The notes under the pieces are model-generated. The model ran no database searches, was not told the origin of the DNA, and saw only the letters and a list, made by a program, of their open reading frames with translations. A stretch of 28,242 nucleotides of DNA, taken from positions 1 through 28,242 of the IMG/VR virus record IMGVR_UViG_3300050821_004850. The stretch is one strand, 5' to 3'. Both the position numbers and the translations under genes were made by a program. This document shows, piece by piece, positions 12,934-27,634 of the stretch. This stretch comes from a virus. The first letter of the stretch is position 1, and each line of letters starts with the position of its first letter.

Positions 12934-13128
12934 ATGGCCTTCCCTTGGGAACCAAGCCCAGTGCAGCAAGCAATTTTAAACAGCGACGAAATTCCGGCTT
13001 GCATCCGACGCGACGGAAACAACCGTGCGCCGTTCATGGACTTTCTAAGTGCACTGCACGTCAGTCCCGCAAAAGATCCTCCAACGAAGCCCCCTGCATC
13101 GGCTCCGCCTTCGGCAGCCACGAATTAG
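12934..13128 (+). CDS. Small protein with N-terminal FPWE motif
   Basis: A 64-residue protein starting MAFPWEPSPVQQ, with AAAGG seven bases before the ATG. The body has SDEIPACIRRDGNNRAPFMD and a Pro/Ala/Ser-rich tail, so it is likely partly disordered. The FPWEP start is shared with the protein at 25809 (FPWEPVPVSE), although the two are otherwise unrelated. Its last 68 bases overlap the end of the convergent minus-strand gene at 13061-13369. No family recognised. Confidence 0.6.
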   Translation: MAFPWEPSPVQQAILNSDEIPACIRRDGNNRAPFMDFLSALHVSPAKDPPTKPPASAPPSAATN

Positions 13129-13369
13129 CCTCCCGACGCATCGCAGCCCTAACTACGCCGGTCACGCCGCTGTCGCGCGCACGCTCGAAAAGCAAGATCT
13201 CGCCTTCCGCAAGCGCCTTGTCCACGTCAGGGTCGTCCTTGATCGCGGCCCACTCAATGCCGGCGGCGCGCAACGCCAGCTCGCGGGGCACGCCTTCACT
13301 CAGGCGCTGCAAGAGCAGTTCTCGCGGCGTCTGAGGTTCTTTCTTTCCTGGGAAGGTCCACGGGAACAT
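13061..13369 (-). CDS. Hypothetical helical protein with FPW start
   Basis: A 102-residue protein. The ATG at 13369 overlaps the TGA of the gene before (TGATG) and gives MFPWTFPGKKEPQTPRELLL. It is then mostly helical and acidic/basic (RLSEGVPRELALRAAG, KALAEGEILLFERARDSG). An upstream frame to 13408 has no support. The FPW start is echoed by other small proteins in the window. The helix at residues about 20-45 could be a DNA-binding or protein-interaction element, but I do not recognise a family. Confidence 0.66.
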   Translation of the reverse strand: MFPWTFPGKKEPQTPRELLLQRLSEGVPRELALRAAGIEWAAIKDDPDVDKALAEGEILLFERARDSGVTGVVRAAMRREANSWLPKAEPMQGASLEDLLRD

Positions 13370-13614
13370 CAGGCCTTCTTGGCTTGACCGATCTGGTAGG
13401 GCATCCATTCACAGAAAAAACCCTGCGGTACCGGATCTTCTTCCTGCCGCATAGTGATCGACGTGCGCGGCACCGGGTTGCCGTTCGGGTCAAATACGAT
13501 CAGGTTGACCAAACGCGGGCCGTGAACATACGTCACCATGGCCGCACATGGTTGGTCCTTCATGCTTCCGCCCGGCCGGTACCATACTACGCGGCCAACT
13601 GTCGGTTCAATCAT
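13369..13614 (-). CDS. Conserved small phage protein (WYRPGG type)
   Basis: An 81-residue protein with VVWYRPGGSMKDQPCAAM near its start, then VTYVHGPRLVNLIVFDPNG and a C-terminal PQGFFCEWMPYQIGQ. I recall this layout as a small conserved unnamed family in proteobacterial phages. The pattern of alternating hydrophobics suggests a small beta-barrel. ATG overlaps the upstream TGA (ATGA) and the stop overlaps the next ATG (TGATG). Confidence 0.72.
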   Translation of the reverse strand: MIEPTVGRVVWYRPGGSMKDQPCAAMVTYVHGPRLVNLIVFDPNGNPVPRTSITMRQEEDPVPQGFFCEWMPYQIGQAKKA

Positions 13615-13868
13615 TTTGTCCTCTTTAAGGTTACTCGGTTGGTTTGCGGGTCGTACTCATAATCGCGTGCGAGACGCCCGCTTGTCTTCGTCGCACGGTC
13701 GATTGCGCGTCCTGCCGGCCCCAGCATTTCGCGGTGCAGGCCTTCGGCAGTCAGGCGTTCCGAGTTCTGCTCTACGTGACCGCGTTCACGCAAAATTGAC
13801 AACGCCATGTCGCGATTGCCGCCGAGCTGCTCGGTGAGCCGGTCGATAAGGGGCTGGTGCTGCGTCAT
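13611..13868 (-). CDS. Hypothetical protein
   Basis: An 85-residue protein starting MTQHQPLIDRLTEQLGG at the ATG that overlaps the TGA of the 1322-residue gene (ATGA). It is helical through NRDMALSILRERGHVEQ and ends in a basic beta-like tail (YDPQTNRVTLKRTK). A longer frame reaching to 14120 lies wholly inside the large gene and is rejected. No family is known to me. Tight coupling suggests a partner or chaperone of the large virion protein; this is inference. Confidence 0.66.
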   Translation of the reverse strand: MTQHQPLIDRLTEQLGGNRDMALSILRERGHVEQNSERLTAEGLHREMLGPAGRAIDRATKTSGRLARDYEYDPQTNRVTLKRTK

Positions 13869-16800
13869 TGCATCGTTGCGCCACGTTGCGCGGCCGTCTG
13901 CGCGGCCTGCGGCAACCCTGATTTGACTTCGTTCGCCAAGAAATCCTTGAACATCACCGCCTTGCCGAGTACGCGCGCATTCATGTAGCCCTGCACGAGC
14001 TTGTACAGGCGTTGACCGCCGACAAGCGCGCTGATCATGCCCACCGTAGGTACGCCGTGCAGATTGGCCGCGACTTCGCCGGCAATCACTGGCCCCATCA
14101 GCGCCGCCTCCGACTTCCAATCGCCTTTGGCGCCGGCTTTCATCGCGTTGAACGCACGAAGCGCGGACGGATCGCCCTTGGCAAACTCGGTAAAATTCTT
14201 TTGCAGTTCGCGCGCGGCCGGCGTATTGCCCTGCGCCAGCACGCTCTGCATCTTGCCGTAATTCATGCCCTGCGTAGCATTCATGACTTTGGCGTACCGC
14301 TGATCGAGGTTTTGCAGATTTTCAATGATCTTCGCGCCGCGTTCCGGCCCGAACACGTACGCCGCAGCCGCCTTTTGTTGATTGCGTACGCCCTGAAACA
14401 ACCCGTCCATGGCATCCGCGCTCGGTTTATCCGCATTTTGCAGGAACGAAAGACGCTTCTGGATCAGCTCCGAACCCGCGTCTTGAAGCTGCTTCCACTT
14501 CTCGCCCCAATCCTTTGCTGGCGCCTTAACCAGCATTTCGGCGTGCTCGGCCTCGGGGCGGAACTGCTCAGGTACCTTGCCCGTAGGATTGTCAGCCGTA
14601 CGCAACTGCGCCGTAGGACCGTCCGGGATGGCCTGGTTAGGCTTCACCGCTCCGACACCGGTATCGGCGACCTGCGTACGCAAATCGTTATAGCCCGCCG
14701 ATACTGCGCGCCTCTCGGAAGCCGCGCCTTTCATCACCTGCGCTTCGCCCGATGGCACGCCAGCCTTGGCTTGCTCGTACGCGTGCACCATATCGTCAGG
14801 GTTCTGGCCGTGATCCTTGATCGCCGCAGTAGCGTCATCGGCTGCTTGCTTTGCAGCCTCATACTTCGGATTGGCGCCGGCATCACCCGGTAACTTTGGC
14901 GGCTCGCTTGCCATCGTCGCGCGCGCCTCCGCCAGCTTACCCGCACTCGCCGACAGATCGGCTTGTGCGCCCGTCGTGTAGCGAGACAACGCCTTGTAGG
15001 CCGCCGAGCCGCCCATTGACACGAAACGACCAAGCGCCTCGCCCCCAAGCGCGTAGCCGGCGCCTTCGGCCGCCGAGCCCGCGATGTCCGATGCATCGCC
15101 GCCTTGCAACGCCGTCGCGCCCGCGTTCACGGCTGCCACGCCCCCGACGCGCGCCGCAGCGCCGAGCACAGGGCTAGCTTCCGGCGCGATGCCCAGCACG
15201 GCGCCGAGCGCGGCCTGCTTCGTGATCTTCGCCGGATCTTGCTCGCGGCCTTGCATGTAGTCCTTGAATGCCTGACCAGCCGCTCCGCCGGCTCCGCCGC
15301 CCGCCATTCCACCAAAGGGACCGCCCGCAAGCATCCCGCCCAGCGTTCCCGCTGTGCTCGCGATTGCGGGCGCGTTGCTGACGACAGGCCCCGCGGCGCG
15401 TTCCGCTGGCGTCGCAACGTGGTCCCCCGCGGGCGTGGTGCGGCCGGTCCACGGCGCGGCCCCGACATCAGGCAGTGTTGCTGTCCTATCTGGCGCCGAC
15501 GAGCTCGGAGCGCCTTTACCCATTTCCGCCTGATATCGCTGCAGCACCGTCGCCGCAGTCGGCCGCCCCTTGAAAAACATCGGATTATTGCGCGCCGCTG
15601 CTTCGCCCACGATCGAGCGCGCATCAGCGTTCGGATCTGCATGCAACAACGCAGCCGCCCCCGTGGCACCGAGATTATGCGCCACGTAGAGATTGGCATC
15701 GTTGACGGGCAGCCCCGCGCTTTGCAGCGATGCAGCATTGGCGGCCGTGAATTTCTCCATCGCCTGCGTTTGCTGCTGCGGCGTGGCATCCTTTGCGCGT
15801 GCCGGCGCGCCTGGCGGCTTATTGGCTGCCCACGTGCTGTCAATCATCTGAAACGCGCCGGATGCGCTGGAGCCCGGCGTCGTGGCAGTCCACGGGTTCT
15901 TACTGCCGCCGCTCTCGATCCGCTGGGTGCTCGTCAGATAAGCCGGTGTTACGCCTGGGGGCGGCGTGAAGCTGACCGGCTGCCCGGCGATCGTAACCGG
16001 CGCGGGAGGCGAGCCCCCGCCTGCCGGACCGGAACCCGCTGGGGAGGTAGAGGCCGGGCCTGCAGGCGGAGTGCCCTGGGATGGCACGCCCGGCGCGATG
16101 CTAGCTTGCTGTACAGGCGTTTGCAAGGGCTGCGCACCCGGCAATTGCGCGGTCGTCGCTGTCCCCGGCGGTACGTTGGTTGCGCCGGCACCAGGGCGTT
16201 GAGCGCCGAGCTGCAGCACGCCGTCGCCGCCACCAATTGCCTGATGATTTGGCATCATGCGCGTAACTTGGGCGTCGTGGCCGCGCTCGATTGCGTCGTC
16301 AATCTCGCCGTTCTCGCCTTTGCCGTAGCCAAATACGCTGGCGTCAAAGCCCAGCGCTCCAGCCCGTTCCGCGGTGCGGCCGATGCGACTGCCCACCGTC
16401 TGATCGTTGTAGGCTTTGAGCGTGTCGAGTACCTGGCGTTGCTGGTTTTGCGTCAACTGCGTTAAATACGGCTTGACTTTCTCCGGATCTGCGCCGCCGG
16501 ACAGTGCATTGATGCCGCCCGCGTAGTTCGCGGCGATGGTATCCAGTAAACTTTGCGTGTACGCGCGTTTTCCGCTCTCGATCTTCAACAGTCCTGCGGT
16601 AGCGCCGCCACCGCCACCGCGCAACATGGATGCAAGCCCCTCGGCGATGCCTTGCTGTACATTCGGATTGGTATTCAACGGGTTTTTGGCGTCGGGCGGG
16701 ATTGGGTTGCCCTTGCTATCCGTCGTAGCGAGCTGGTACGTGCGCGCAAAAGCGCGGTTTTTCTCGATTTCCGGCTTGGTCACCTCAACGGCAGCTTCGT

Positions 16801-17833
16801 CGCGCATCGCTTTGCGCTGCTCATCCGTGCCGAGCGTGAAATCCTGCCCCAATTTACGCGGGTCAGCCATGCCGTTGACGACAAGCCCGCGCGTGCCCGA
16901 TGCGCCGTTACGCGACCATGTGCCGTTCGTGACTTGATCGCCGTAGGCCGTCGTTACGCGGCCTTTGTACGTGTTGGCCTCCTTCTCTTCCATTGGCTGG
17001 TAAGTATTGCGGTCCTCCAACTTTTGCCGCAGCGTATCGATGCCGATGCGCGCTTCGCGCAGTGCCTGGCCTTCGCGTGCCTTGGCCGCGTTGAACTGAT
17101 TGAAATCATCGGGCACCTTCATGCCCATGCCTTCGAGTTGCGATAGCGTACCATCCTGGCGCAGCGACTTGATTGCGGCCGTGTACTCGCCCTGGTTCGT
17201 CATATTCGACAACTTATCGAAAGCGAATTGCGCGTTCGTCAGGTGGCCGGCCGCGGCCTCGTGCACCTGATCTTGAATGGCTTCGGCCGATTTTGGATCG
17301 ACGGCTTGCAGGCCCTTGAACACTTGCAGGTTGCCCTGCAGCGCCTTGGACTGCGCCACCGCAACGCGATCAGCCTGCGTCGCTTCGTCCGGCACCTCGC
17401 CGGGATCTAGTCCCAGCGTCGCAGCCTGCGTGCGGTTGGCCTGCATGTCCGCTTTTTGCTGCCGGATCTTCTGCAATTGCTCGGTTGCCGCCGGCACGAA
17501 GTTGCGCGCGGCCTGCACGCCCTCGGGGTTGAAAAATTGCAGGATGGGATTGCTCGCTACGGCGTTGGCGCGCGCGACGCGCTGCTGCAGCAGATCAGCC
17601 GTTTGATCGAGCGCTGACGCTTGCGGGTCCGGCGGCTTATAGTTGGCCCCGCCAAAGCCCGCGCCGATACCGGACCCGAAGATGCCGCCTTGAGGGGCGG
17701 AAGGTGCCGGCTGCGGTGCAGGTGCGTCAGGAACAGCCGGCGGGGGCGCCAAACTCAATGCGCTTCCGAAGTCCGTATTGCCGCCGGCCATCGTTCCAGG
17801 GGGCGTGCTACCGCCGAATGCGCTGTCATCCAT
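13865..17833 (-). CDS. Very large virion protein with lytic transglycosylase domain
   Basis: A 1322-residue protein, with AGGAG eight bases before the ATG. In order: a Pro/Gly-rich N-terminus (1-70), a long helical region with many Gln/Lys/Ala residues (about 75-540), a Pro-rich linker (about 545-625), then a soluble lytic transglycosylase-like domain at about 628-770. The signature is TSTQRIESGGSKNPW with E640 as the catalytic glutamate, GAFQMIDSTW, and YVAHNLGATGAAALLH. A Gly/Ala-rich hydrophobic segment (about 820-945) could insert in a membrane, and the last ~350 residues are helical and charged. Internal virion proteins of podoviruses such as T7 gp16 combine a wall-cutting domain with large helical regions that help DNA enter the cell. 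I infer a similar ejection role for this protein. Tape-measure protein with a lysozyme domain is the main alternative. Confidence 0.82.
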   Translation of the reverse strand: MDDSAFGGSTPPGTMAGGNTDFGSALSLAPPPAVPDAPAPQPAPSAPQGGIFGSGIGAGFGGANYKPPDPQASALDQTADLLQQRVARANAVASNPILQFFNPEGVQAARNFVPAATEQLQKIRQQKADMQANRTQAATLGLDPGEVPDEATQADRVAVAQSKALQGNLQVFKGLQAVDPKSAEAIQDQVHEAAAGHLTNAQFAFDKLSNMTNQGEYTAAIKSLRQDGTLSQLEGMGMKVPDDFNQFNAAKAREGQALREARIGIDTLRQKLEDRNTYQPMEEKEANTYKGRVTTAYGDQVTNGTWSRNGASGTRGLVVNGMADPRKLGQDFTLGTDEQRKAMRDEAAVEVTKPEIEKNRAFARTYQLATTDSKGNPIPPDAKNPLNTNPNVQQGIAEGLASMLRGGGGGATAGLLKIESGKRAYTQSLLDTIAANYAGGINALSGGADPEKVKPYLTQLTQNQQRQVLDTLKAYNDQTVGSRIGRTAERAGALGFDASVFGYGKGENGEIDDAIERGHDAQVTRMMPNHQAIGGGDGVLQLGAQRPGAGATNVPPGTATTAQLPGAQPLQTPVQQASIAPGVPSQGTPPAGPASTSPAGSGPAGGGSPPAPVTIAGQPVSFTPPPGVTPAYLTSTQRIESGGSKNPWTATTPGSSASGAFQMIDSTWAANKPPGAPARAKDATPQQQTQAMEKFTAANAASLQSAGLPVNDANLYVAHNLGATGAAALLHADPNADARSIVGEAAARNNPMFFKGRPTAATVLQRYQAEMGKGAPSSSAPDRTATLPDVGAAPWTGRTTPAGDHVATPAERAAGPVVSNAPAIASTAGTLGGMLAGGPFGGMAGGGAGGAAGQAFKDYMQGREQDPAKITKQAALGAVLGIAPEASPVLGAAARVGGVAAVNAGATALQGGDASDIAGSAAEGAGYALGGEALGRFVSMGGSAAYKALSRYTTGAQADLSASAGKLAEARATMASEPPKLPGDAGANPKYEAAKQAADDATAAIKDHGQNPDDMVHAYEQAKAGVPSGEAQVMKGAASERRAVSAGYNDLRTQVADTGVGAVKPNQAIPDGPTAQLRTADNPTGKVPEQFRPEAEHAEMLVKAPAKDWGEKWKQLQDAGSELIQKRLSFLQNADKPSADAMDGLFQGVRNQQKAAAAYVFGPERGAKIIENLQNLDQRYAKVMNATQGMNYGKMQSVLAQGNTPAARELQKNFTEFAKGDPSALRAFNAMKAGAKGDWKSEAALMGPVIAGEVAANLHGVPTVGMISALVGGQRLYKLVQGYMNARVLGKAVMFKDFLANEVKSGLPQAAQTAAQRGATMQ

Positions 17834-17884
17834 AATGCCGGCTCCTATTCGGAACCGAGGTTAGCACGTCAGACGGCAACTTGG

Positions 17885-17992
17885 CTAGGTAGGCTGCGGC
17901 GCCACGCCAGTAACGAGCAGGATGACGGCGATAATCACAACGACCGCCAATCCTGCCCAGATCGCGTAATCTCGTTTTTGATCAGGCGTCAT
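17885..17992 (-). CDS. 35-residue single-span membrane peptide
   Basis: MTPDQKRDYAIWAGL followed by a long hydrophobic run (AVVVIIAVILLVTGVA) and PQPT. It is predicted to be a single-pass membrane peptide. It lies three bases after the stop of the 59-residue membrane protein gene. No family recognised. It could be a small regulator or lysis-timing peptide, but position gives no proof. Confidence 0.55.
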   Translation of the reverse strand: MTPDQKRDYAIWAGLAVVVIIAVILLVTGVAPQPT

Positions 17993-17995
17993 GGC

Positions 17996-18175
17996 TCAGC
18001 GCCCACCTTGCAGAATAAAGCCGAAGTCGTGCCACCCGAGCAAGAACAGCAAAAACCATAAAAATATGCTGGTCAAATACGGGCCGCGCGTACCGCCCCA
18101 ACCCCACCAGCCGACGCCCGCGTACGCAAGCAACCACATGATCATGAGGATCCAAAATAGCAGGCCGATCGGCAT
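17996..18175 (-). CDS. Small membrane protein with two hydrophobic segments
   Basis: A 59-residue protein starting MPIGLLFWILMIMWLLAYAG, with GGAGGA seven bases before the ATG, so this start is preferred over an upstream frame of 32 extra residues. Two hydrophobic stretches (residues about 4-20 and 33-48) flank a Trp/Gly-rich turn (GWWGWGG). Such short Trp-rich two-span proteins occur in many phage genomes without known function. It lies 50 bases from the stop of the preceding gene at 18229. Confidence 0.68.
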   Translation of the reverse strand: MPIGLLFWILMIMWLLAYAGVGWWGWGGTRGPYLTSIFLWFLLFLLGWHDFGFILQGGR

Positions 18176-18228
18176 GGCGCAGTCCTCCAATGAACCACGG
18201 TAAACGCTGGGGTAAGACAAAGGTTCCG

Positions 18229-18453
18229 CTAACCGAGCAAGAGAGCACGCAGCTCGCGCCGGTATCGCCACAACCGCTTTGGAATGCGTAGCGGAATAAC
18301 TGGCATCTTCCCTAGCAGCAACGCACCGTTTCGGTACGCCTTGGCACGTTCATGCTTGAACTGCCTGCGCCACCGTTGACAGAAATTCACAGCACGGCCA
18401 CGCATCTTGGGTTGCTTGTGCGCCATCCGTCGCTGTCGTGTTGCTGGTGTCAT
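18229..18453 (-). CDS. Small, very basic hypothetical protein
   Basis: A 74-residue protein that starts MTPATRQRRMAHKQPKMRGR at the ATG overlapping the previous gene's TGA (ATGA). It contains roughly 20 Arg/Lys residues, with CQRWRRQFKHERAKAYRNG and a RIPKRLWRYRRELRALLL tail. A nucleic-acid-binding role is plausible from the charge. An upstream open frame to 18513 is less likely because it would overlap that neighbour fully. Confidence 0.6.
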   Translation of the reverse strand: MTPATRQRRMAHKQPKMRGRAVNFCQRWRRQFKHERAKAYRNGALLLGKMPVIPLRIPKRLWRYRRELRALLLG

Positions 18454-18578
18454 TTGCTGATGCGACCGATTGCGAAGCCAAGCACGCCCACTCCGAACAA
18501 GAAGAAACCGCAAGCCAGCAAATCGAGAGCGGTATCTAGCCGCTCGAAGGCCAGCATGCCGCCGCCGAAATCGTTCAC
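18450..18578 (-). CDS. 42-residue membrane peptide
   Basis: Starts at a GTG that overlaps the upstream TGA (GTGA) and ends in a TGA overlapping the next ATG (ATGA). The sequence opens MNDFGGGMLAFERLDTAL and then has one hydrophobic stretch (LLACGFFLFGVGVLGFAIG) followed by RISK. Its position in a chain of overlapped small genes and its coherent single-span character support it being real. Function unknown. Confidence 0.55.
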   Translation of the reverse strand: MNDFGGGMLAFERLDTALDLLACGFFLFGVGVLGFAIGRISK

Positions 18579-18787
18579 GGCTCTTCCTTCGAGCAGCGCT
18601 TGATCCAGTCCGATCGCGCGGGCTCGTTGGCCGGTGCCAGCTTGATGCAGTCCCGCGCGAAGTCGGCGCGCGTGTACGGCTGCTGTTGGGGCGCAGGGTC
18701 GGCGATGCGACCCATTCCGCTCATATTTTGCGCAAAGGCCGGCGTGGCGTGCGTCAAGATCAGGGCAAAGGCAACGGCGTAGCGCAT
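18575..18787 (-). CDS. Small exported protein
   Basis: A 70-residue protein with a clear signal peptide (MRYAVAFALILTHATPAFA, then Q20) and AGGAG seven bases before the ATG. The mature part is polar, begins QNMSGMGRIADPAPQQQ, and has a CIKLAPANEPARSDWIKRC segment that could form a disulfide. I cannot name a family. It is one of five proteins in the window with an A|Q signal cleavage site. Periplasmic action, for example in superinfection exclusion, is possible but unproved. Confidence 0.65.
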   Translation of the reverse strand: MRYAVAFALILTHATPAFAQNMSGMGRIADPAPQQQPYTRADFARDCIKLAPANEPARSDWIKRCSKEEP

Positions 18788-18811
18788 GCGAGGGCTCCTA
18801 AGTTCATGAGT

Positions 18812-18830
18812 GGCCGGGCTTTCCCCGGCC
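18812..18830 (-). repeat. GC-rich hairpin between small genes
   Basis: A perfect inverted repeat, GGCCGGG and CCCGGCC around a GAAAG loop when read on the minus strand. It lies in the 48-base gap between the stop of the 50-residue gene at 18836 and the ATG at 18787. No run of T follows on either strand, so it is not a standard intrinsic terminator. It may influence translation or mRNA processing. Confidence 0.5.
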
Positions 18831-18835
18831 TGGTC

Positions 18836-18988
18836 TCATGTTGGTTTCTCCGTCAAGGCTTCTCGTACTGCTTCAAGCGTCGTATCATAGCTGTCATACG
18901 CTGCCGGCGCGGGTTCGTCAATAGTGCGTTCGTGGTGCTGGTGCGCCCGGCGGCGTGCGCGCAAGTCTTTTGACGATAAGGCGATCAT
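18836..18988 (-). CDS. 50-residue hypothetical protein
   Basis: A small polar protein starting MIALSSKDLRARRRAHQHH and continuing ERTIDEPAPAAYDSYDTTLE. Its ATG overlaps the TGA of the upstream gene (ATGA), which supports translation. No family or motif is recognised. It is followed by a hairpin and then the exported protein gene. Confidence 0.5.
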   Translation of the reverse strand: MIALSSKDLRARRRAHQHHERTIDEPAPAAYDSYDTTLEAVREALTEKPT

Positions 18989-19221
18989 ATCGTCCACTCA
19001 GGACGCTGGTAATGCAAATAAGCAGTTACAGGATCAACACGCCTTCCCATTTTCACACGCACAACAGGCTTGAAGTCCTCAATGCGACGCTTCCATCGCT
19101 CGGCGTACCCAGCAAGACGTAAAGTAGCACCGTCCTCACTGATGAAAGTTACTACGTGATCAACTAGCCCGCCCTTGGCATAGCGTACACGCGCCCCCGG
19201 AACGATGTACGGATTAGTCAT
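18985..19221 (-). CDS. Small beta-rich hypothetical protein
   Basis: A 78-residue protein with MTNPYIVPGARVRYAKGG, VVTFISEDGATLRL, KPVVRVKMGRRVDPVTAYL and a short aromatic end (HYQRPEWTI). The alternating pattern suggests a small SH3-like beta-barrel such as those with GxxVRY starts, which often bind nucleic acid; that is by resemblance only. Its ATG follows a GGGGTGA box six bases upstream; its stop overlaps the next ATG. Confidence 0.6.
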   Translation of the reverse strand: MTNPYIVPGARVRYAKGGLVDHVVTFISEDGATLRLAGYAERWKRRIEDFKPVVRVKMGRRVDPVTAYLHYQRPEWTI

Positions 19222-19227
19222 GGCTAA

Positions 19228-19407
19228 TCACCCCGTCTCCCGTTTCGATCTCTTCAGGCACTCAATAACCCGTAAAACCGAATTGTACGCCTGCTGGATT
19301 TCAAGCCCCGCGGTCTCGTCCGCAGTCAAATCAAGCTGACCTAAGAACCATCTGGTGCGCTCTAATTCTACTATCACAAATTCTTGTTTCGGGTTGATAA
19401 CGCTCAT
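19228..19407 (-). CDS. 59-residue helical hypothetical protein
   Basis: Starts at the ATG overlapping the TGA of the 66-residue gene (ATGA), with GGAG eight bases upstream. A longer frame extends to 19500 but lacks support. The sequence (MSVINPKQEFVIVELERTRW, GLEIQQAYNSVLRVIECLKR) is a short strand followed by two charged helices. No family recognised. Confidence 0.57.
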   Translation of the reverse strand: MSVINPKQEFVIVELERTRWFLGQLDLTADETAGLEIQQAYNSVLRVIECLKRSKRETG

Positions 19408-20520: not shown

Positions 20521-20576
20521 GCTCTCCAGCAAGGTTGTGTGAGATTGTCAGTACAGAAGAAATTAAGAGGTGTCAA
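20521..20576 (-). promoter_or_regulatory. Leader box and candidate promoter of the 20517 gene
   Basis: The box GCTGGAGAGC (20530-20521) sits three bases before the ATG at 20517. A TTGACA (20576-20571) and a weak TACTGA (20553-20548) with a 17-base spacer lie upstream. The -35 box overlaps the end of the preceding gene. The promoter is plausible, not proven. Confidence 0.5.
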
Positions 20577-20776: not shown

Positions 20777-20781
20777 TTTGT

Positions 20782-20834
20782 GCTCTCCAGCGGTTAACTT
20801 GTATCTTACATAGCACGTCGTACGTACGTGTCAA
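20782..20834 (-). promoter_or_regulatory. Extended -10 promoter with leader box
   Basis: Read on the minus strand: TTGACA (20834-20829), a 16-base spacer, TGC (20815-20813) directly before TATGTA (20812-20807), then 21 bases from the -10 to the GCTGGAGAGC box (20791-20782) and ATG at 20776. The same TGCTATGTA and the same 21-base distance occur at 26609 on the plus strand. Confidence 0.62.
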
Positions 20835-21271
20835 GCCCTCTTTTCAATTTTCTTCGAATAGCGCCAAGCCGTATCCGTGTCCATACGGAGCAACCATGCC
20901 AGCTTGCCGATCTCGTACTTGTCGCAGATTGCGTCCCAATGAGCCACGGCAGCCCGCCCGTTGATCGGCGAAGCAGCGATGGCAATCCGTAGCGCGCTGT
21001 CCGCCGGCTCCCTGGCAGCCGCCAGAACGCGTTCCTTCCGCTTCGTGCGCTCGAAGTCCGTACGAGCTAGCCGCCCGATCATGATCAGGTCGTCGATGAC
21101 GCTCGCAAGCAGCCCGCCACAAAGCTCCGCGAGATCCATCGGCAATCCGGCTTGCCTGCATTGCGTCGTAAGCACAGCCGATTGCAGACGTACGAGCGGC
21201 CTTATCCGCTCAGCGTGCGTGCTGGCCGTCTCTACTGCGACCTGGGGGAGCCGTGTTGCTGGAAGGTTCAT
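20831..21271 (-). CDS. Hypothetical protein with possible C-terminal HTH
   Basis: A 146-residue helical protein. The C-terminal ~30 residues (DKYEIGKLAWLLRMDTDTAW, then RYSKKIEKRA) have the spacing of a helix-turn-helix: a helix, a turn at MDTD, and a basic recognition-like helix. The rest is helical with RTDFERTKRKERVLAAA. It lies beside a palindrome-rich control region and is the first gene of the leftward operon, which suits a local regulator. The ribosome binding site is weak. Family membership is not recognised, so the regulator role is inference. Confidence 0.6.
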   Translation of the reverse strand: MNLPATRLPQVAVETASTHAERIRPLVRLQSAVLTTQCRQAGLPMDLAELCGGLLASVIDDLIMIGRLARTDFERTKRKERVLAAAREPADSALRIAIAASPINGRAAVAHWDAICDKYEIGKLAWLLRMDTDTAWRYSKKIEKRA

Positions 21272-21405
21272 GGTATCCGTTTGGTCCCTAGGTATACATT
21301 AGTAACCTACCCGTCTCCCAAACGTAGCAGGCCTCCACCTTGTCAGGCAAGCCCGAGCGTAGCGCTGTAGGGCGGCCTCTTCTTGAGTGTGAAACACGTG
21401 AGGCC

Positions 21406-21420
21406 TACTCCGTAGGAGTA
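21406..21420. promoter_or_regulatory. Palindrome TACTCC-GTA-GGAGTA
   Basis: Perfect six-base arms around a three-base centre. Location in the control region suggests an operator; no protein is identified. Confidence 0.45.
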
Positions 21421-21437
21421 CTAACTTCAATAGGATG

Positions 21438-21548
21438 TCCTTTAATGGGCAATCCTTAGTACGGTCCCATAAGGCATTTATTGAATACATAACGGATACT
21501 TAGGATCTATTAGATACTTAGAAATCTCCCTTAATGGGTCGTCCTTAG
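21438..21548 (+). repeat. Imperfect 22-base direct repeat
   Basis: TCCTTTAATGGGCAATCCTTAG (split here as TCCTTTAATGGG at 21438 and CAATCCTTAG ending 21459) is repeated with a few changes at 21527-21548 (TCCCTTAATGGG, TCGTCCTTAG). The copies are 89 bases apart. GATACTTAG is also present twice between them (21495-21503, 21513-21521). Probable repeated protein-binding sites. Confidence 0.6.
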
Positions 21549-21560
21549 GGATTATCCCTA
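21546..21560. promoter_or_regulatory. Palindrome TAGGGAT-T-ATCCCTA
   Basis: A perfect 15-base palindrome (seven-base arms, one-base centre) that overlaps the right end of the second direct repeat. It lies about 30 bases upstream of the candidate -35 at 21587. A strong operator candidate. Confidence 0.55.
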
Positions 21561-21586
21561 GAATGTCCATTGAAACATTTCGTGAC

Positions 21587-21614
21587 TTGACGGCTCCTTA
21601 AGGATCAGTCACTA
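21587..21614 (+). promoter_or_regulatory. Candidate rightward early promoter with operator in spacer
   Basis: TTGACG (21587-21592) with a possible weak -10 (TCACTA 21609-21614 or CACTAA 21610-21615). The perfect palindrome TCCTTAAGGA (21595-21604) sits between the boxes, a typical place for repression. The -35 lies 43 bases before the leader box at 21630, the same distance as at the leftward 20834 promoter. The poor -10 suggests an activator or a different sigma factor. Confidence 0.45.
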
Positions 21615-21629
21615 AGGATGCACACAAAC

Positions 21630-21639
21630 GCTGGAGAGC
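21630..21639 (+). promoter_or_regulatory. Early leader box GCTGGAGAGC
   Basis: Includes the Shine-Dalgarno GGAGAG before ATG 21645. The same ten bases occur before the genes at 20517, 20776 (minus) and 26646 (plus). Confidence 0.65.
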
Positions 21640-21644
21640 AGAAG

Positions 21645-22523
21645 ATGACCAAGCAACCCGCCGATCTCAATGACAGCCTCGACGACCTTCTGGACGCGCC
21701 GGTCGGCGAAGTTCGCACGGCCATCCACGCTCCCGTTGATTATGCGCCCAAGGATTTTTCGGAACCATGCTCGAAGTGCCGTGGTACCGGCCGCTTTGTT
21801 AGCTATTCAGGCCGTACGCTGGGCCCCTGTTTCGCCTGCAAAGGCGCCGGCAAACACACCTTCAAGACTTCGTCAGAAGCCCGCGCCAAGGCGCGTACGT
21901 CGAAAGCCGACCGGAAAGCGCAAGAGGCTCTTGAGTGGGCGGAGCAGCACGCAGCCGAAATGGCATGGGTCAATAATGCTGCGGCCCGCGGCTTCGAGTT
22001 CGCTGTGTCGCTGCGGGCCGCTCTGACGCAATACCACAGCCTCACGGATGGGCAGCTCGCCGCTGTTCAGAAGCTCATGGCTCGCGACGCCGAGAGGGCT
22101 GCGGAACGCGCTGCGGCTGCCCCTGTCGTCGAGACGGCCGGCGTTGACCGTCTCAAAGCTGCTTTTGATTTCGCGATTTCCAAGGCCGCCGAGAAGGGCC
22201 GCGGCTTTCGCAATCCGCGCATCACGATCGGCGGTGTTGTCATCAACCCGGCCGGCGCAAACTCCAAGAACCCGGGCGCGCTTTACGTTAAGTCCGGCGG
22301 CGAATACCTTGGCAAGATCGCATCGGGCCGGTTTTTCGCTGCCCGCGAATGCACCCCGGAACAAGAGAAGAAGATCTTGGCTTTCGTCGCCGACCCGAAG
22401 GCCGCTGCCAAGGCGTACGGGCAAGAAACCGGCGTCTGCTGCATTTGCAACGCCACCCTGACGAACAAGGAAAGCATCGAAGCCGGCATCGGCCCGATCT
22501 GCGGTTCTAGGTTTGGATGGTGA
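21645..22523 (+). CDS. Phage zinc-finger protein with DUF6011-like C-terminus
   Basis: A 292-residue protein. The ATG at 21645 is chosen because GCTGGAGAGC lies six bases upstream; a longer frame at 21618 starts before it. Residues 42-70 contain two DnaJ-type CxxCxGxG units (C42/C45 with CSKCRGTG, C62/C65 with CFACKGAG). After a charged helical middle comes RITIGGVVINPAGANSKNPG, LYVKSGGEYLGKIASGRF, and a C-terminal zinc-binding region (VCCICNATLT, then ESIEAGIGPICGSRFGW). The final segment fits the DUF6011 pattern as I remember it. Families with this layout are common in phage early regions and probably bind DNA or RNA, but a precise role is unknown. It opens the rightward operon. Confidence 0.75.
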   Translation: MTKQPADLNDSLDDLLDAPVGEVRTAIHAPVDYAPKDFSEPCSKCRGTGRFVSYSGRTLGPCFACKGAGKHTFKTSSEARAKARTSKADRKAQEALEWAEQHAAEMAWVNNAAARGFEFAVSLRAALTQYHSLTDGQLAAVQKLMARDAERAAERAAAAPVVETAGVDRLKAAFDFAISKAAEKGRGFRNPRITIGGVVINPAGANSKNPGALYVKSGGEYLGKIASGRFFAARECTPEQEKKILAFVADPKAAAKAYGQETGVCCICNATLTNKESIEAGIGPICGSRFGW

Positions 22524-22524
22524 C

Positions 22525-22677
22525 ATGCACCAGGCAATAGGCCTCGGCCTTCTGATCTACCTCATCGCGTTCGCATTCGGCGAGCGCACGGCGCGAACCG
22601 TAGTCGGTATCGCGCTTGTAATTGGAGCGCTGGCGTTCGCGTACGTCATGTTCCGCATTGTGGAAGGAACGATATAA
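22525..22677 (+). CDS. 50-residue membrane protein
   Basis: Starts one base after the previous stop and ends in TAATG with the next gene. It opens MHQAIGLGLLIYLIAFAFGE, has a short basic loop (RTARTV), then a second hydrophobic run (GIALVIGALAFAYVMF). Two short membrane spans are likely. Function unknown. Confidence 0.6.
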   Translation: MHQAIGLGLLIYLIAFAFGERTARTVVGIALVIGALAFAYVMFRIVEGTI

Positions 22678-23162
22678 TGCATTCACGAGACGCGTGGGAA
22701 AAATGCGGTAGCGGCCCGCAGACCATCAAAGGTAAGACATACAGAAGCCTGACCGAGTTCAAACGGCCGTGCTCCACTTGCGGCGAGCCGTTCTCCATCT
22801 TCGTGACCAACAAAATCGCAAGTGGCCACGCCGATAGCAACAGCTTCGGCCTGAAGAATTGCGAACGCCATCGGCAGAACAAATCAATTGCGGACAACGA
22901 GGAACTTGAGCGCCTGCGCGAATGGGAAGAGGTATTTCACCGCGCGCTCAGGCTCGTGCAGAAGAAACTCGGCCCTCACGCAACGATGTCCAAGATGGAC
23001 GAGCATATCGCATTGCTGATCAAGGCGACTGACGAGGTTTTCGCCGAAGCTACTAGGATGCGTGCTGAGCTTGCGAAGTATGAGCTGCAACCGGCTATGG
23101 TAGAGGCACAAAAGGTAACCGCTATGAATGGTGCCTTGCCAAACAAAATGCCTTGGGAGTAA
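22677..23162 (+). CDS. Zinc-ribbon-like helical protein ending in MPWE
   Basis: A 161-residue protein. Residues 32-35 are CSTC and 62-65 are CERH (spacing CxxC-26-CxxH), a likely zinc site. The middle and C-terminal half are helical (EELERLREWEEVFHRALRLV, EVFAEATRMRAELAKYEL). The last four residues are MPWE (NKMPWE before the stop), identical to the end of the primase-helicase encoded next. ATG overlaps the upstream stop. Family not recognised; probably a replication- or transcription-associated early protein. Confidence 0.67.
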   Translation: MHSRDAWEKCGSGPQTIKGKTYRSLTEFKRPCSTCGEPFSIFVTNKIASGHADSNSFGLKNCERHRQNKSIADNEELERLREWEEVFHRALRLVQKKLGPHATMSKMDEHIALLIKATDEVFAEATRMRAELAKYELQPAMVEAQKVTAMNGALPNKMPWE

Positions 23163-23167
23163 ATAAA

Positions 23168-23201
23168 AGTCCCGACGCAGGGCTCAATCTGCGCCGGGAC
23201 T
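23168..23201 (-). terminator. Hairpin with T-tail on minus strand, within plus-strand operon
   Basis: AGTCCCG and CGGGACT form the base of a stem, with five more pairs (CGCAG/CTGCG) after one mismatch and an eight-base loop. Read on the minus strand the stem is followed by TTTTATTTA, an intrinsic-terminator signature; on the plus strand no T run follows. It lies between the MPWE-ended gene and the primase gene. As a plus-strand mRNA hairpin it could instead be a processing or attenuation site. Confidence 0.55.
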
Positions 23202-23230
23202 GATAGGCTACACTCTCGATCGGGACGAGA

Positions 23231-25324
23231 ATGCTGTTCATAGATAGCCAAGAAAAGCTGCGGCTGCAAGATGCAGGTACGCAATCATTTCCTGCCACAA
23301 TTCAAGCTTTTTGGAACGCCGCAGTACAGCGCGGCTTGTTTCCGCTGTCTATCGCACGGGGCTCGAAGGCTCCCATAGGAGAAGGTTGGAATGCGTGGAC
23401 CTCACCGATCCCCCATCCAGGAACAGGCAGTGTTGGGCTGCGGTGCGGCGATGGGGGCCTTACTGCTTTTGACGTGGACGCTAGCAGTACTCACGCATCA
23501 GAGCGATTGCTTTCTGCTTTTCGTAGTGTGCTGGGCAGCAGCGTACCTGTGCGTTGGGGGCGCCGCCCTCGTTTCCTTATTCCTTTTTACCTGACCGACG
23601 CACCCGTACAAGGGCGTACGTTCACGTTTCCTGATGGTGACAAGCTCCAGCTCATGGGCGGACAATTCGTCGCCTTCGGCCCGCATAAAGACACTGGAGA
23701 AAACTATGCCTGGGAGAATTGGGACGCAGAATGGCCCCGTCTATCAGTTTCACAACTTCAGCATGTCCTTACAGAAGTACCTGCTAGGGCTGGCACCTCC
23801 CTCCGATTTAGCGCCGACCATGAGACCGCCAGCCCCGACGAACTCGCAGAGGCGGTTCCGCAAACACAAGACGAATGGCAAGCCGGCAGAGACGCCGCCT
23901 GCCGATACCTCGGACTGCTCAAACAAGAGCTAACCGGCAAGCACGAGGGCCGCGGATCCACGATCTTCAGCATCGTCGGCGTACTGAAGTTCGCCGAGCT
24001 GCACGGGATATGCACGCGCGACGAGATCGAAACCGCAATCATTGAAGCCGGCCACCATCTTGACGAAGGGCTAGGCGGCCGTACGCTTCGCGAAGAAATC
24101 GAGCGTCACAACGACTTGCCGGTGTTGCGCGGCAACTTGATCATGGGCGCCATCATCGCGCGCCGAACGATGTTGCGGGGGCTAAGTGATGCACAAACCC
24201 TGCCGATGCTGGTTTCACGTACGGGCTTTGAGATATCGCTGGAGGATAGCACAGATGAATTACCGTGGTTACTATACCAGCGTATCCTATGCGGCGAGGT
24301 CCATTTTTTTACAGGGCATAGTGGTGCCGGAAAGTCTACCGTCGTCAGTGACGTGGCTGTACATCTTCTCACCGGGCGCCCATGGCTCGATAGTGATGTT
24401 GAACGTACCAACGGTCATGTTTTGTGGGTTGCCGCTGAAGACGATTACAGCACAGAACGACGCGTAAGGTACCTGCTAAAGCAGGAACCAAATGCACGCG
24501 AGCTGGCGGATCGCTTCCATCTGATCCGCGGCGTAGCCGAACCGCTGGCGTTCGAGCTCCAATGCATTGCGCAAGTCCAGGCCATGGCTGCCATGGGCAA
24601 GCGCGTGGATCTGATCGTGGTGGACACGTGGGGCGCCTCGGGGCTGTGTTTTGCCGATAACGATACCGAAAAAGTCCTCAAGGCCATGTTCGTCTTGAAA
24701 AACATCGCCAAACGTACAGGCGCCGCCGAGATCGTGACGGATCATTTGCCGCTCGGCAATGAGGACGCATGGCAGAAGGGCAACGGCGCCAAATCAGGCC
24801 AAGCCGGGTTTCTGTACCGCGTCACCGCCGGCAAGGAAGATCAGGTATCGATCGATTGCGGCAAGGCGCGCGGCGCCCCGAAGGCGCGAAGCTATGCCGG
24901 CAAGATCGTGTCCGAGAACTACGGGCAGGATAGCAAGGGGCGTACAACGACTGTGAACGTGTTCAAGCGTCAGGCGCCGAAGGAACAGCGCGAGCAGAGT
25001 GCAGTGATGCACTTGGCCGCGGCCCTGCCTGGCGCCGTAACCGGCGGCATGAACGCCCTTCGTGACGGCCAGATCGTATCTTTCGACAGCGTAGCCGGTG
25101 AGATCGGCCACAGCGTCAAGGGCGAGAAGCCTGAATACGTCGTCAATCGCGACGCTGCGCAAAGAATGTTCGATAAAGACGGCTTGAAACTCTTGATTGA
25201 CACGGGACACTTACGTACACTGCATGGGCAGCCGTTCCTGTTCGTGTTTGCGCCCGGTGGCGTAGCAAAACCGGAATTGCTGATGCCTTGGGCTTTTATG
25301 GGAGTGAAGATGCCATGGGAATGA
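23231..25324 (+). CDS. Bifunctional primase-polymerase and RecA-like helicase
   Basis: A 697-residue protein. The N-terminal primase-polymerase domain has LFPLSIARGSKAPIG, TAFDVDASS with the acidic D81/D83 pair, RWGRRPRFLIPF in place of the usual GGxH segment, and GGQFVAFGPHKDTGENYAW (about 143-161). The C-terminal P-loop domain has Walker A GHSGAGKST (362-370, K368), VLWVAAEDD (Walker A' region), and Walker B VDLIVVDTW (D465). The fold is that of RepA/hexameric replicative helicases (AAA_25). Such fusions prime and unwind DNA for phage replication. The substitution near the third prim-pol motif is seen in phage subfamilies, so activity is likely intact. The last residues, LMPWAFMGVKMPWE, carry the repeated PWE motif. 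ATG lies ~70 bases after the hairpin; the next gene overlaps its stop. Confidence 0.86.
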   Translation: MLFIDSQEKLRLQDAGTQSFPATIQAFWNAAVQRGLFPLSIARGSKAPIGEGWNAWTSPIPHPGTGSVGLRCGDGGLTAFDVDASSTHASERLLSAFRSVLGSSVPVRWGRRPRFLIPFYLTDAPVQGRTFTFPDGDKLQLMGGQFVAFGPHKDTGENYAWENWDAEWPRLSVSQLQHVLTEVPARAGTSLRFSADHETASPDELAEAVPQTQDEWQAGRDAACRYLGLLKQELTGKHEGRGSTIFSIVGVLKFAELHGICTRDEIETAIIEAGHHLDEGLGGRTLREEIERHNDLPVLRGNLIMGAIIARRTMLRGLSDAQTLPMLVSRTGFEISLEDSTDELPWLLYQRILCGEVHFFTGHSGAGKSTVVSDVAVHLLTGRPWLDSDVERTNGHVLWVAAEDDYSTERRVRYLLKQEPNARELADRFHLIRGVAEPLAFELQCIAQVQAMAAMGKRVDLIVVDTWGASGLCFADNDTEKVLKAMFVLKNIAKRTGAAEIVTDHLPLGNEDAWQKGNGAKSGQAGFLYRVTAGKEDQVSIDCGKARGAPKARSYAGKIVSENYGQDSKGRTTTVNVFKRQAPKEQREQSAVMHLAAALPGAVTGGMNALRDGQIVSFDSVAGEIGHSVKGEKPEYVVNRDAAQRMFDKDGLKLLIDTGHLRTLHGQPFLFVFAPGGVAKPELLMPWAFMGVKMPWE

Positions 25325-25497
25325 ACACGCCAGAAACTATTAGCAAATTGTTGCGCGCTATCGCAGGCGGCGTCGATGCAAAGGAAAATAACCATGACGT
25401 TATTTTTCTAGCGGCTGCTCGCATAATTGAAGAGCACGAACGCGATGTACAGCATCTTAAGCAACTCTTGAACGGCTATAAAGCTTTGTTAAAATGA
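25321..25497 (+). CDS. 58-residue helical protein
   Basis: Starts at the ATG overlapping the primase stop (ATGA), giving MNTPETISKLLRAIAGGV, then HDVIFLAAARIIEEHERDVQ and a Lys-rich end. Entirely helical by pattern. An upstream in-frame ATG at 25288 lies inside the primase gene and is rejected. No family recognised. Confidence 0.6.
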   Translation: MNTPETISKLLRAIAGGVDAKENNHDVIFLAAARIIEEHERDVQHLKQLLNGYKALLK

Positions 25498-25646
25498 CTG
25501 AATGGAACGGAGTTTGCGCATGCGGCAAAACAACGATGGATGGCGTACGCTGTAAGTACGGTGCTACGCATCAGCCGCTCTTGCGCATGCCGTGGGAGTC
25601 GCCAAAACGAGAACTTGAGAAGGAGAAATCTCCGTGGGAAAGTTAG
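25494..25646 (+). CDS. 50-residue protein with Cys motif and two PWE motifs
   Basis: The ATG overlaps the previous stop (ATGA). The sequence begins MTEWNGVCACGKTTMDGVRC with C8, C10 and C20, and then H26, a possible small zinc site. RMPWES (32-36) and SPWES (46-50) follow, the second being the very end of the protein. Its last 13 bases overlap the start of the next gene. This is the densest occurrence of PWE in the window. No known family. Confidence 0.6.
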   Translation: MTEWNGVCACGKTTMDGVRCKYGATHQPLLRMPWESPKRELEKEKSPWES

Positions 25647-25816
25647 AAGATCTCGCGCAGCGCAGTTTCAAGATGTTAGGATGCGCAGAAGGATATTTCG
25701 CCGCAGCAGCTTACAAAGAACAGCACGAGCCGCCCTATAAGAAAGGGAAGGCGTATCAAGAGTTTGTAGCTATCAGAGACTTGCTGGCTGACTTAGAACG
25801 CGTAGTCCGTGGCTAA
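25634..25816 (+). CDS. 60-residue helical protein
   Basis: GTG start at 25634 with AGGAG eight bases before it. Sequence begins MGKLEDLAQRSFKMLGCAEG, then FAAAAYKEQHEPPYKKGK, and a helix with LLADLERVV. It overlaps its neighbours on both sides by 13 and 8 bases. No family recognised. Confidence 0.57.
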   Translation: MGKLEDLAQRSFKMLGCAEGYFAAAAYKEQHEPPYKKGKAYQEFVAIRDLLADLERVVRG

Positions 25817-26126
25817 CGAGCTAACCACTAGGTTTCCGTGGGAGCCTGTACCTGTCTCTGAAACCGTGGCGCTGCTGCAACGTGACTTCGCGTACGCCGT
25901 ACGAATGACCGCCGTTGTCGTGCATTCGAACCGGCCAGAGCTTCAAATCTGCGTGAACACGGCGCGGGGCCAGATCGTACCGCGCGGTGAGTGCAGGTTT
26001 ACGGACGGCAGCACGATCGAATTACACGATATCGGCATGCCACAAGTTGGCTGTTCTGAAATGTCAGTACGCGAGCTTATGGACCATGTTTGGAACGTGG
26101 CGCGAGACTTGGGGCTGGAGTTGTGA
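25809..26126 (+). CDS. 105-residue protein with FPWE motif near start
   Basis: GTG start overlapping the previous gene by eight bases. It begins MANELTTRFPWEPVPVSETV (FPWE at residues 9-12), followed by a helix (LLQRDFAYAVRMTAVVV), a beta region (LQICVNTARGQIVPRGE, FTDGSTIELHDIGMPQ) and a C-terminal helix (SVRELMDHVWNVARDLGLEL). The motif start is shared with the otherwise different protein at 12934. No family recognised; GTGA overlap with the next gene. Confidence 0.63.
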   Translation: MANELTTRFPWEPVPVSETVALLQRDFAYAVRMTAVVVHSNRPELQICVNTARGQIVPRGECRFTDGSTIELHDIGMPQVGCSEMSVRELMDHVWNVARDLGLEL

Positions 26127-26578
26127 GGATACTGGACATGTCGGGCGGCAACAGAGCGGTGCGGTTTGACAAAACAAATCGTGATACGGTGTACGTCGAT
26201 TTGCGAGCTTCCGTGGAACCTAATGTCTGTGCAGATACGCGCATGTTGCCTTTTGCTGCCGGCGTTTTTGGGCTAGTATTATTTGATCCGCCACACAAAA
26301 ACAACGCGGTAAACGGCAACATGGTTCGTAGCTACGGCCACCATACGCACGCCGAGATACGAAAAGTAATAGAAGGATCAGCTATTGAAGCACATCGAGT
26401 TAGCCGTACAGACGCACTTATGGCGTTGAAATGGAATGAGCATTCGATCAAACTAACTACTGTGCTAGAGCTGCTGCGGCCCTCATGGGAGCCGCTATTT
26501 GGTCATGGCGTCTCGCACCAACAAAAAGGTACTTCATGGGTTATGTTACTTCGGCAGTCATGGCCCTGGGAGTTGTAA
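26123..26578 (+). CDS. Phage DNA/SAM-dependent methyltransferase-like protein
   Basis: A 151-residue protein starting at the GTG overlapping the previous TGA (GTGA). It opens with a SAM-binding motif (MRILDMSGGNRAVRF), then VYVDLRA, the acidic and ADTRMLPFAAG segment, and LVLFDPPH (D55-P-P-H58), the catalytic motif of amino-methyltransferases. The second half, ALKWNEHSIKLTTVLELL, PLFGHGVSHQQKGTSWVMLL, matches a compact phage family often annotated as a SAM-dependent methyltransferase. Target is unknown (DNA adenine or another substrate). It ends SWPWEL, another PWE occurrence. A longer frame to 26090 is rejected in favour of this coupled start. Confidence 0.74.
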   Translation: MRILDMSGGNRAVRFDKTNRDTVYVDLRASVEPNVCADTRMLPFAAGVFGLVLFDPPHKNNAVNGNMVRSYGHHTHAEIRKVIEGSAIEAHRVSRTDALMALKWNEHSIKLTTVLELLRPSWEPLFGHGVSHQQKGTSWVMLLRQSWPWEL

Positions 26579-26608
26579 TAATTCGTGATTAGGCGTACTC
26601 ACAAATCG

Positions 26609-26642
26609 TGCTATGTACGTACATCAACAACCGCTGGAGAGC
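26609..26642 (+). promoter_or_regulatory. Extended -10 promoter and early leader box
   Basis: TGC TATGTA (26609-26617) is 21 bases before GCTGGAGAGC (26633-26642), then ATG at 26646. The arrangement equals that on the minus strand at 20782-20815. No good -35 is seen here. Confidence 0.55.
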
Positions 26643-26645
26643 GCC

Positions 26646-26795
26646 ATGTCCCTAACCAAATCCCAACTTTTCGCCCACGCCCACGCAATCACCCGCATGA
26701 AGAATGCCGCGTACTTCGGCGGGTATCAGAAGGCCTTCGCCTTGGTGTTGCGCCAGTGCTGTGCCGAGAAGCTGGTCTACGGGTGGAACGTCTGA
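26646..26795 (+). CDS. 49-residue helical protein
   Basis: MSLTKSQLFAHAHAITRMKN, then AYFGGYQKAFALVLRQC. It resembles short phage proteins with the pattern KSxIFxxAHxIAR...YxxAFAxAL, which are common but uncharacterised. It starts after a GGAGAG Shine-Dalgarno within the leader box. TGATG overlap with the next gene. An upstream frame to 26613 lies before this ribosome binding site. Confidence 0.66.
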   Translation: MSLTKSQLFAHAHAITRMKNAAYFGGYQKAFALVLRQCCAEKLVYGWNV

Positions 26796-27112
26796 TGACC
26801 ATTGACATTCCTAAACGCAACCGAAACGTCAAAAGACTCCTCCAAGAGACCTATCTGCTTCGAGCACCCAATGCCTCGGCGCCATTGTGCCCCGACGTTA
26901 AGATCAGCGTTCGGGCTGGTAATGGAACCGCATACCATTGGATCATGATCGAGTTCAGCAAGCGCGTCCCTCTGCCGCCCGGAATGAGCCACAACCGTAT
27001 CGAGGAGGCGATCACCGATCTTATTATCGGCGCCGGCATCCACGTCAGCACCTTTGCCAGCGACGGCGATTATGTCGGTAAGTGCGTCAGTGTTCGGGTG
27101 CCGCACCAATGA
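26795..27112 (+). CDS. 105-residue hypothetical protein
   Basis: Starts MTIDIPKRNRNVKRLLQETY at the ATG of a TGATG overlap. Then DVKISVRAGNGTAYHWIMIE, SHNRIEEAITDLIIGAG and YVGKCVSVRVPHQ give an alpha/beta layout that resembles small phage proteins with unknown function. A longer frame beginning at 26585 is another reading of the upstream gene. No family assigned. Confidence 0.65.
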   Translation: MTIDIPKRNRNVKRLLQETYLLRAPNASAPLCPDVKISVRAGNGTAYHWIMIEFSKRVPLPPGMSHNRIEEAITDLIIGAGIHVSTFASDGDYVGKCVSVRVPHQ

Positions 27113-27237
27113 CCGTTTGGGTCTACTTCCACGGTGACGGCTCCGTCACCATTTTCGCAACCGAACTTGCGGCGCTCCGCTGGTTTTCCGTGTACGATCC
27201 GGAAGGCGTCGCCTTCGAACATAAGGTGGTATCGTGA
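27109..27237 (+). CDS. 42-residue hypothetical protein
   Basis: ATG overlaps the previous stop (ATGA). MTVWVYFHGDGSVTIFATEL, then FSVYDPEGVAFEHKVVS, a small beta/alpha peptide with two aromatic pairs. Coupled to the membrane peptide gene by a GTGA overlap. No family known. Confidence 0.53.
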   Translation: MTVWVYFHGDGSVTIFATELAALRWFSVYDPEGVAFEHKVVS

Positions 27238-27305
27238 CCCTCGATCTCAAGATTTCCTTGGCGCTAGCATTCGTCGGCGCCTTCGTTGTGGTATGCCTTC
27301 TGTGA
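27234..27305 (+). CDS. 23-residue membrane peptide
   Basis: GTG start overlapping the previous stop (GTGA), and its TGA overlaps the next GTG. The peptide begins MTLDLKISLALAFVG and is hydrophobic to the end. It is very short, so translation is inferred only from the coupling and the uniform hydrophobic character. Confidence 0.42.
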   Translation: MTLDLKISLALAFVGAFVVVCLL

Positions 27306-27634
27306 GCTGGTTTCCCTGGGCGCAGGCCCCCGCGCGATCGAACATGACGACCGGCGAACTTATCGATTGGCTGCGCTACCGCGCAATTGACTTCGGCATG
27401 CCGCCGCAGTTTATCGATGCGGTTGACGCGCTCGACGTGACCGACAAGGATGCCGAGATCGAAAAGCTCGGCGATGAATTGACGGATATGGAAAAGGTTC
27501 GTGACGACCTGTACGAGGAACTTGAAAGCCTCGTAAACTCACTTGACGAAAATCTTGACCCGGATAAGTCACCGCCAGAAATAGAGCGCACTTTAGGGTT
27601 TGCGCGCAAAGCGCTGGAGCGCCACAGAAAGTGA
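27302..27634 (+). CDS. Acidic coiled-coil-like protein with FPW near start
   Basis: A 110-residue protein. A GTG overlapping the membrane peptide's stop (GTGA) gives MSWFPWAQAPARSNMTTGEL; alternatives are ATG at 27293 or 27344. FPW at residues 4-6 repeats the motif seen in other small proteins. The body has LRYRAIDFGMPPQFIDAVDA and a long acidic helix (DAEIEKLGDELTDMEKVRDD, LYEELESLVNSLDE). No family recognised. The gene is followed with GTGA overlap by the helicase, suggesting a replication-associated helper. Confidence 0.62.
   Translation: MSWFPWAQAPARSNMTTGELIDWLRYRAIDFGMPPQFIDAVDALDVTDKDAEIEKLGDELTDMEKVRDDLYEELESLVNSLDENLDPDKSPPEIERTLGFARKALERHRK

Follow-up and report, generated by a model that had tools for sequence, protein, structure and literature searches.

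Proteins of a tailed phage and of its relatives carry, at their extreme ends, a motif made of a hydrophobic residue (φ) and Pro-Trp, usually followed by Glu or Gln. This terminal motif is real and more widespread than the first-pass annotation of the DNA had stated. It is probably a short linear motif that would dock phage proteins, most of them acting on DNA, on one coevolving receptor associated with phage DNA. The motif is apparently undescribed: as the first-pass annotation had supposed, no description of PWE or MPWE in phages was found in the open literature, subscription papers being mostly outside this coverage. The stretch of DNA analysed, hereafter the window, is a 28,242-base IMG/VR virus record. 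DNA comparison revealed no annotated isolate close to the phage, and a search for the host through relatives in bacterial genomes gave one remote match and did not find the host. All eight instances listed at the outset are present in the sequence as described:

12934 to 13128, plus strand: small protein, N-terminal MAFPWEPSPV (MAFPWE), motif at 12940-12951; homologous N-termini in families F107, F247 and F337.
13061 to 13369, minus strand: F17, helical HTH-like protein of 102 aa, N-terminal MFPWTFP (MFPW), motif at 13358-13366; Pro-Trp in 17/19 orthologues.
22677 to 23162, plus strand: F3, cysteine-containing protein, C-terminal NKMPWE (KMPWE), motif at 23148-23159; motif in 25/25 members.
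23231 to 25324, plus strand: F4, primase/helicase, C-terminal KMPWE at 25310-25321 and an upstream LLMPW, with MPW at 25283-25291.
25494 to 25646, plus strand: F55, Cys-containing protein of 50 aa with two copies, MPWE at 25587-25598 and C-terminal SPWES at 25629-25643.
25809 to 26126, plus strand: F5, 105-aa protein, N-terminal RFPWEP, motif at 25833-25844; Pro and Trp invariant in 23/23 orthologues.
26138 to 26578, plus strand: F71, DNA methyltransferase, C-terminal QSWPWEL (WPWEL), motif at 26561-26572; motif in 4/4 members.
27302 to 27634, plus strand: F60, N-terminal SWFPWAQ, motif at 27311-27319; the GTG start overlaps the stop of a short upstream frame.

The gene at 12934 was missed by the trained gene finder, and its homologues share the N-terminal pattern (MMPWEKSPV... 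in F107, also F247 and F337). The F71 gene had been listed with a start at 26123, for which 26138 may be an alternative. The helicase-primase F4 (gene end 25324) has the C-terminal sequence LLMPWAFMGVKMPWE, which holds the second motif copy, the C-terminal part of F55 (gene end 25646) reads LLRMPWES...EKSPWES, and the N-terminal motif sequence of F5 (gene 25809) is MANELTTRFPWEPVPV. Relatives of F60 keep the motif as MSAVSWFPWVQ (L002), MAWLPWAE (G011) and MMFPWVK (G022). The window also encodes, at 20831-21139 on the minus strand, F6, a highly conserved protein of 100-150 aa that is present in 23/24 records, is divergent from the adjoining replication operon, has no PHROG match and looks like a regulator.

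Relatives of the helicase-primase (27 proteins, 65-94% identical) were fetched, along with the complete or partial records that encode most of them. Genes were called with a trained finder, and the distance of Pro-Trp from either end was tallied over 24 records with 1648 genes. Four genes of the window have Pro-Trp within the last 6 residues, against 0.26 expected by shuffling (maximum 2 in 200 shuffles), in keeping with the original impression that so many terminal copies are unlikely by chance. Across the 24 records, C-terminal Pro-Trp followed by 1, 2 or 3 residues occurs 34, 29 and 20 times, against 2.3 expected for each, and N-terminal residues 3 and 4 account for 26 and 14 occurrences; the excess is limited to the last ~4 and the first ~5 residues. 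By protein family, φ-PW stands at an end in 29/580 families versus 7 in shuffled proteins (maximum 10), and the count that the first-pass annotation had proposed as a check thus lies far above shuffles. Six further relatives repeat the pattern; they overlap with seven genomes fetched later, in which the C-terminal positions give 4/8/6/3 occurrences against 0.74 expected for each. Pro-Trp is also present in 50/50 readable large-terminase N-termini of the clade, newly found and re-found. In the control phages PTXU04, QDWS535, ct2G2228 and CRP-901, the genes with terminal Pro-Trp number 0, 1, 1 and 3, respectively. Chance or composition as an explanation was rejected by the shuffles, by comparison with other dipeptides and by the further genomes. 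Basic dipeptides are likewise enriched at protein ends, as expected, and are separate from the Pro-Trp motif. A peak of Pro-Trp at C-terminal position 6 arises because F24, a structural-region protein (e.g. L042:6934-7389), has a conserved PPWxxVKxV near its end, an element distinct from the terminal motif that mimics it in the counts. The 98,428-base contig L022 is almost twice as long as its very similar 51.9-kb relative L007 and is possibly a concatemer or a misassembly.

Orthologues in related phages retain the motif, and Pro-Trp is essentially invariant at the C-terminus of the helicase-primase, at the N-terminus of the large terminase (TerL) and in F5. The helicase alignment has Trp near the C-terminal end in 18/18 sequences with variable flanks; exceptions are the helicase of G055, which ends in PKWG, and that of L003, which retains MPW only, 7 residues from the end. 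Pro-Trp is found in 15/15 aligned TerL proteins, with tandem copies in some, and in 23/23 F5 proteins, again with variable flanks. In F17 the 17 of 19 orthologues with Pro-Trp near the N-terminus were counted after start correction, the motif being lost in G013 and G021. Matches of the clade TerL to isolate terminases begin only at residue 35-36, and terminases only 31-34% identical to it are without N-terminal Pro-Trp, so that the TerL tag is taken to be an addition of this clade. Tandem or two-ended copies occur in TerL, F36, F55 and F107. The helicase tail (residues 677-693) is predicted as coil with a pLDDT <50; the model as a whole has a mean pLDDT of 66.8 and is of modest quality. A fixed Pro-Trp with variable flanks and, in the helicase, a low-confidence coil tail match the general definition of a short linear motif, in which a handful of residues are fixed within a disordered, otherwise variable segment.

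At the nucleotide level, the motif draws on each of the four Pro codons and on either Glu codon, Gln, Asp and other residues also occur at the Glu position, and flanks and codons differ between carrier families. Together with the fixed Pro-Trp, this bears out the early reading from the codons: the sequence comparison shows selection on the protein and not on the DNA. On the opposite reading, CCNTGGGAR(TGA) would provide the following gene with its start codon or a ribosome-binding sequence, the peptide being a by-product. The next predicted start does often overlap the motif codons in F4, F36 and F55 (offset -9 or -12), and Pro codon use at the motif differs from background. However, the gene after F3, whose members all have the motif, mostly lies 50-80 bases on (~70 in the window, where a terminator-like inverted repeat stands 3' of F3, between the two genes). 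N-terminal copies are moreover unable to play such a role, and neither the use of every Pro codon nor the replacement of Glu fits a nucleotide signal. As the main cause, a DNA-level signal was rejected on codon use and next-gene spacing, and we hold it to be very improbable. Hardly any credence can be given to an accidental count or to protein ends copied between genes by recombination without selection. Small adjacent genes with similar ends, such as F36 and F55, could swap them, but the same two residues are fixed in families with different flanks and codons, and the enrichment replicates in further genomes.

The carriers comprise the helicase-primase F4, the large terminase F34 (recognized by homology to known terminases and to T4 gp17), the HTH-like F17, the ParB-like F57, methyltransferases and small proteins (F3, F5, F36, F55, F60 and F107), some with the motif at both ends. 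Among DNA methyltransferase candidates 13/15 have the motif, spread over four of five families, and a C5-methyltransferase-like protein also carries it, in two copies. Fold searches with F17 gave weak matches only, to TerS, and this protein is possibly the small terminase. The motif is absent from PolA (F7), the Enc34/T7-type SSB (F8), the exonuclease (F1) and the SNF2-type helicase (F10), as well as from the recognized virion proteins of the clade. Identifiable carriers show a bias to DNA enzymes; for several of the small ones no connection with DNA is known. No evidence came up for the suggested anti-host factor; the carriers that can be identified are for the most part DNA enzymes of the phage.

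If the motif is a docking element, the φ-Pro-Trp-(Glu/Gln) tip, displayed on flexible tails at the N- or C-terminus of numerous unrelated proteins, would attach its carriers to one common receptor, presumably a single molecule. This receptor would sit on phage DNA, and enzymes would thereby be concentrated on replicating or packaging-ready genomes. The residue before Pro-Trp points in this direction. It varies from phage to phage (Phe, Met, Tyr, Gly and others), and unrelated proteins encoded by one genome agree in it in 161/354 pairs, against 101.6±6.8 in permutations. A tree-aware simulation with families evolving independently gives 104.4±16.3 and reaches 161 in 1/1000 runs; few independent changes lie behind the covariation because the clade has strong phylogenetic structure. 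Such concordance across unrelated families suggests one coevolving receptor, and a common partner of the carriers is well supported by inference.

As to the receptor, we would guess first at a replication factor of the phage (its SSB or F9, with PolA possible) and next at a host replication protein. Ranking of candidates by distance correlation placed F9 and the SSB among the leading proteins in most runs, but some structural proteins scored equally, so that the ranking does not discriminate; the SSB and its neighbour F9 are weak leads as a hub. The SSB (F8; L042:15440-16351 and 21 others) has a long Gly/Pro-rich tail that mostly terminates in an aromatic residue, Pro and Arg, and Asp and Glu are absent from the last 30 residues in 22/22 proteins. 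Its tip switches between Phe and Trp at three places in the tree, where the helicase tip mostly leaves Phe/Met; this parallel is a tendency, recognized in hindsight and based on few independent events. F9 (L063:7081-7548) is clade-specific, and its gene is flanked by those of the SNF2 helicase and the exonuclease. It was found by profile in all 22 records covering its region and has no match among annotated phages. Its middle part is rich in Pro and probably disordered (APxPLxPP...FNP), and its C-terminal domain is conserved. A tentative arrangement, possible rather than probable, is an inverted hub in which the SSB would have lost its acidic hub tail, client φ-Pro-Trp tips would dock at an SSB/F9/polymerase module, and methylation and packaging would join the same DNA factory.

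The C-terminal tip of SSB consists of an acidic run followed by Ile-Pro-Phe-COOH. Like the phage motif it places φ-Pro-aromatic at a protein end, and it serves DNA transactions. Unlike this tip, the phage motif is carried by the clients and has N-terminal copies (n=73). The acidic run is missing (Asp+Glu 11.4% versus 9.8% background, Lys+Arg 17.1%, Lys being the commonest residue at -1), and Trp is the last residue in only 5/83 C-terminal copies. The bacterial beta-clamp-binding motif, with the consensus QφxLF (PMC11139829), is also a terminal or loop short linear motif that tethers many DNA enzymes by their N- or C-termini to one hub. Defined as Qφx[L/M][F/L] or Qφx[L/M]x[F/L], it does not describe the phage tips: Gln lies ≤5 residues before the motif in 13/83 C-terminal copies, about background, and there is no Leu-Phe. 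Replacement of the final Phe by Trp is reported to weaken clamp binding (PMC11139829). The first-pass annotation had proposed docking on a shared partner, for example in the style of an SSB or clamp tip; docking and the shared partner are favoured by conservation, the predicted coil tail and covariation, whereas the style is contradicted by these defining features.

In T7 the C-terminal tails of gp4 and gp2.5 contact the DNA polymerase (PMC8472574, PMC5686142). The clade likewise has PolA and a T7-type SSB, and its helicase-primase bears the motif on the C-terminal tail that in T7 couples to the replisome. However, the T7 tails are strongly acidic and the motif tails are not, proteins outside the replisome carry the phage tip, and an acidic tail such as that of SSBs of the T7 type (PMC5686142) is missing from the clade's SSBs. 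T4 gp43, gp55 and gp33 have short, conserved and interchangeable C-terminal clamp-binding motifs directed to one DNA-bound hub (PMC2988020). Here too several unrelated proteins of one phage share a short terminal motif after a divergent linker; the T4 motifs work internally as well, are hydrophobic and acidic instead of φ-Pro-Trp-Glu, have fewer carriers, and their hub, gp45, is known (PMC2988020). T4 TerL is reported to interact with the SSB gp32 and with gp55, which provides a precedent for a link between packaging and replication (PMC9026906).

Outside the clade, KMPWE followed by a stop has at least 119 matches in viral contigs, against 23 for the scrambled KWPME-stop, and is thus at least five times commoner; frames of ≥60 residues are closed by it in 110/119 cases and by the control in 0/23. 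Most matches belong to a gp4-like primase-helicase of marine phages (at least 85 contigs, L088-L206, e.g. L088:3533-5242), which is unrelated to F4 and akin to enzymes of Bacteroidota phages; other KMPWE-ended proteins appear, in our reading of their sequences, SSB-like or nuclease-like. In the eight KMPWE-only genomes examined, a single protein per genome bears the tail, which argues against the same multi-protein system, and in the three examined genomes with the marine helicase it is the only tagged protein. Outside the clade, KMPWE would then reflect convergence or else a tip of this kind put to simpler use. PolA is absent from 10 searched marine records with the gp4-like primase-helicase, so the host polymerase is probably used there. 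A double tip, FPWEKMPWE, ends a ~130-aa HEMVH metallopeptidase-like protein in L137, L101 and nine other marine contigs, and in L182 and L197 a possibly SSB-like protein that contains very long stretches of poly-Glu has the C-terminus KKMPWE.

These marine enzymes bear on whether the tips dock on a host replication or repair protein (e.g. clamp, polymerase or SSB-associated protein) hijacked by the phage. That the same KMPWE closes an unrelated helicase in so many contigs, the ten searched ones being without PolA, speaks for a host receptor, as does the absence of a phage-encoded bacterial-type beta clamp from 18 records searched with PF02768. On the other hand, the lone tagged helicase of the three marine genomes may be convergent, and the published clamp consensus is not that of the motif; we regard a host receptor as possible though rather unlikely. 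Short terminal tips, at either end and on unrelated proteins, might also be expected of a signal for protein stability or processing (a degron, an anti-degron or a protease tag), and a coevolving protease could still produce covariation. Yet bacterial degrons are usually specific for one end, the identifiable carriers lean towards DNA enzymes, and tandem copies occur, which makes such a signal improbable.

Docking on a receptor associated with phage DNA, if true, would represent an undescribed docking code inside a phage. Sequence alone would then reveal which uncharacterized proteins join the phage DNA machinery, and a function could be assigned to many small phage proteins. The receptor question would be directly testable with a four-residue peptide, and the motif would offer an entry point to the coupling of replication, DNA methylation and packaging.
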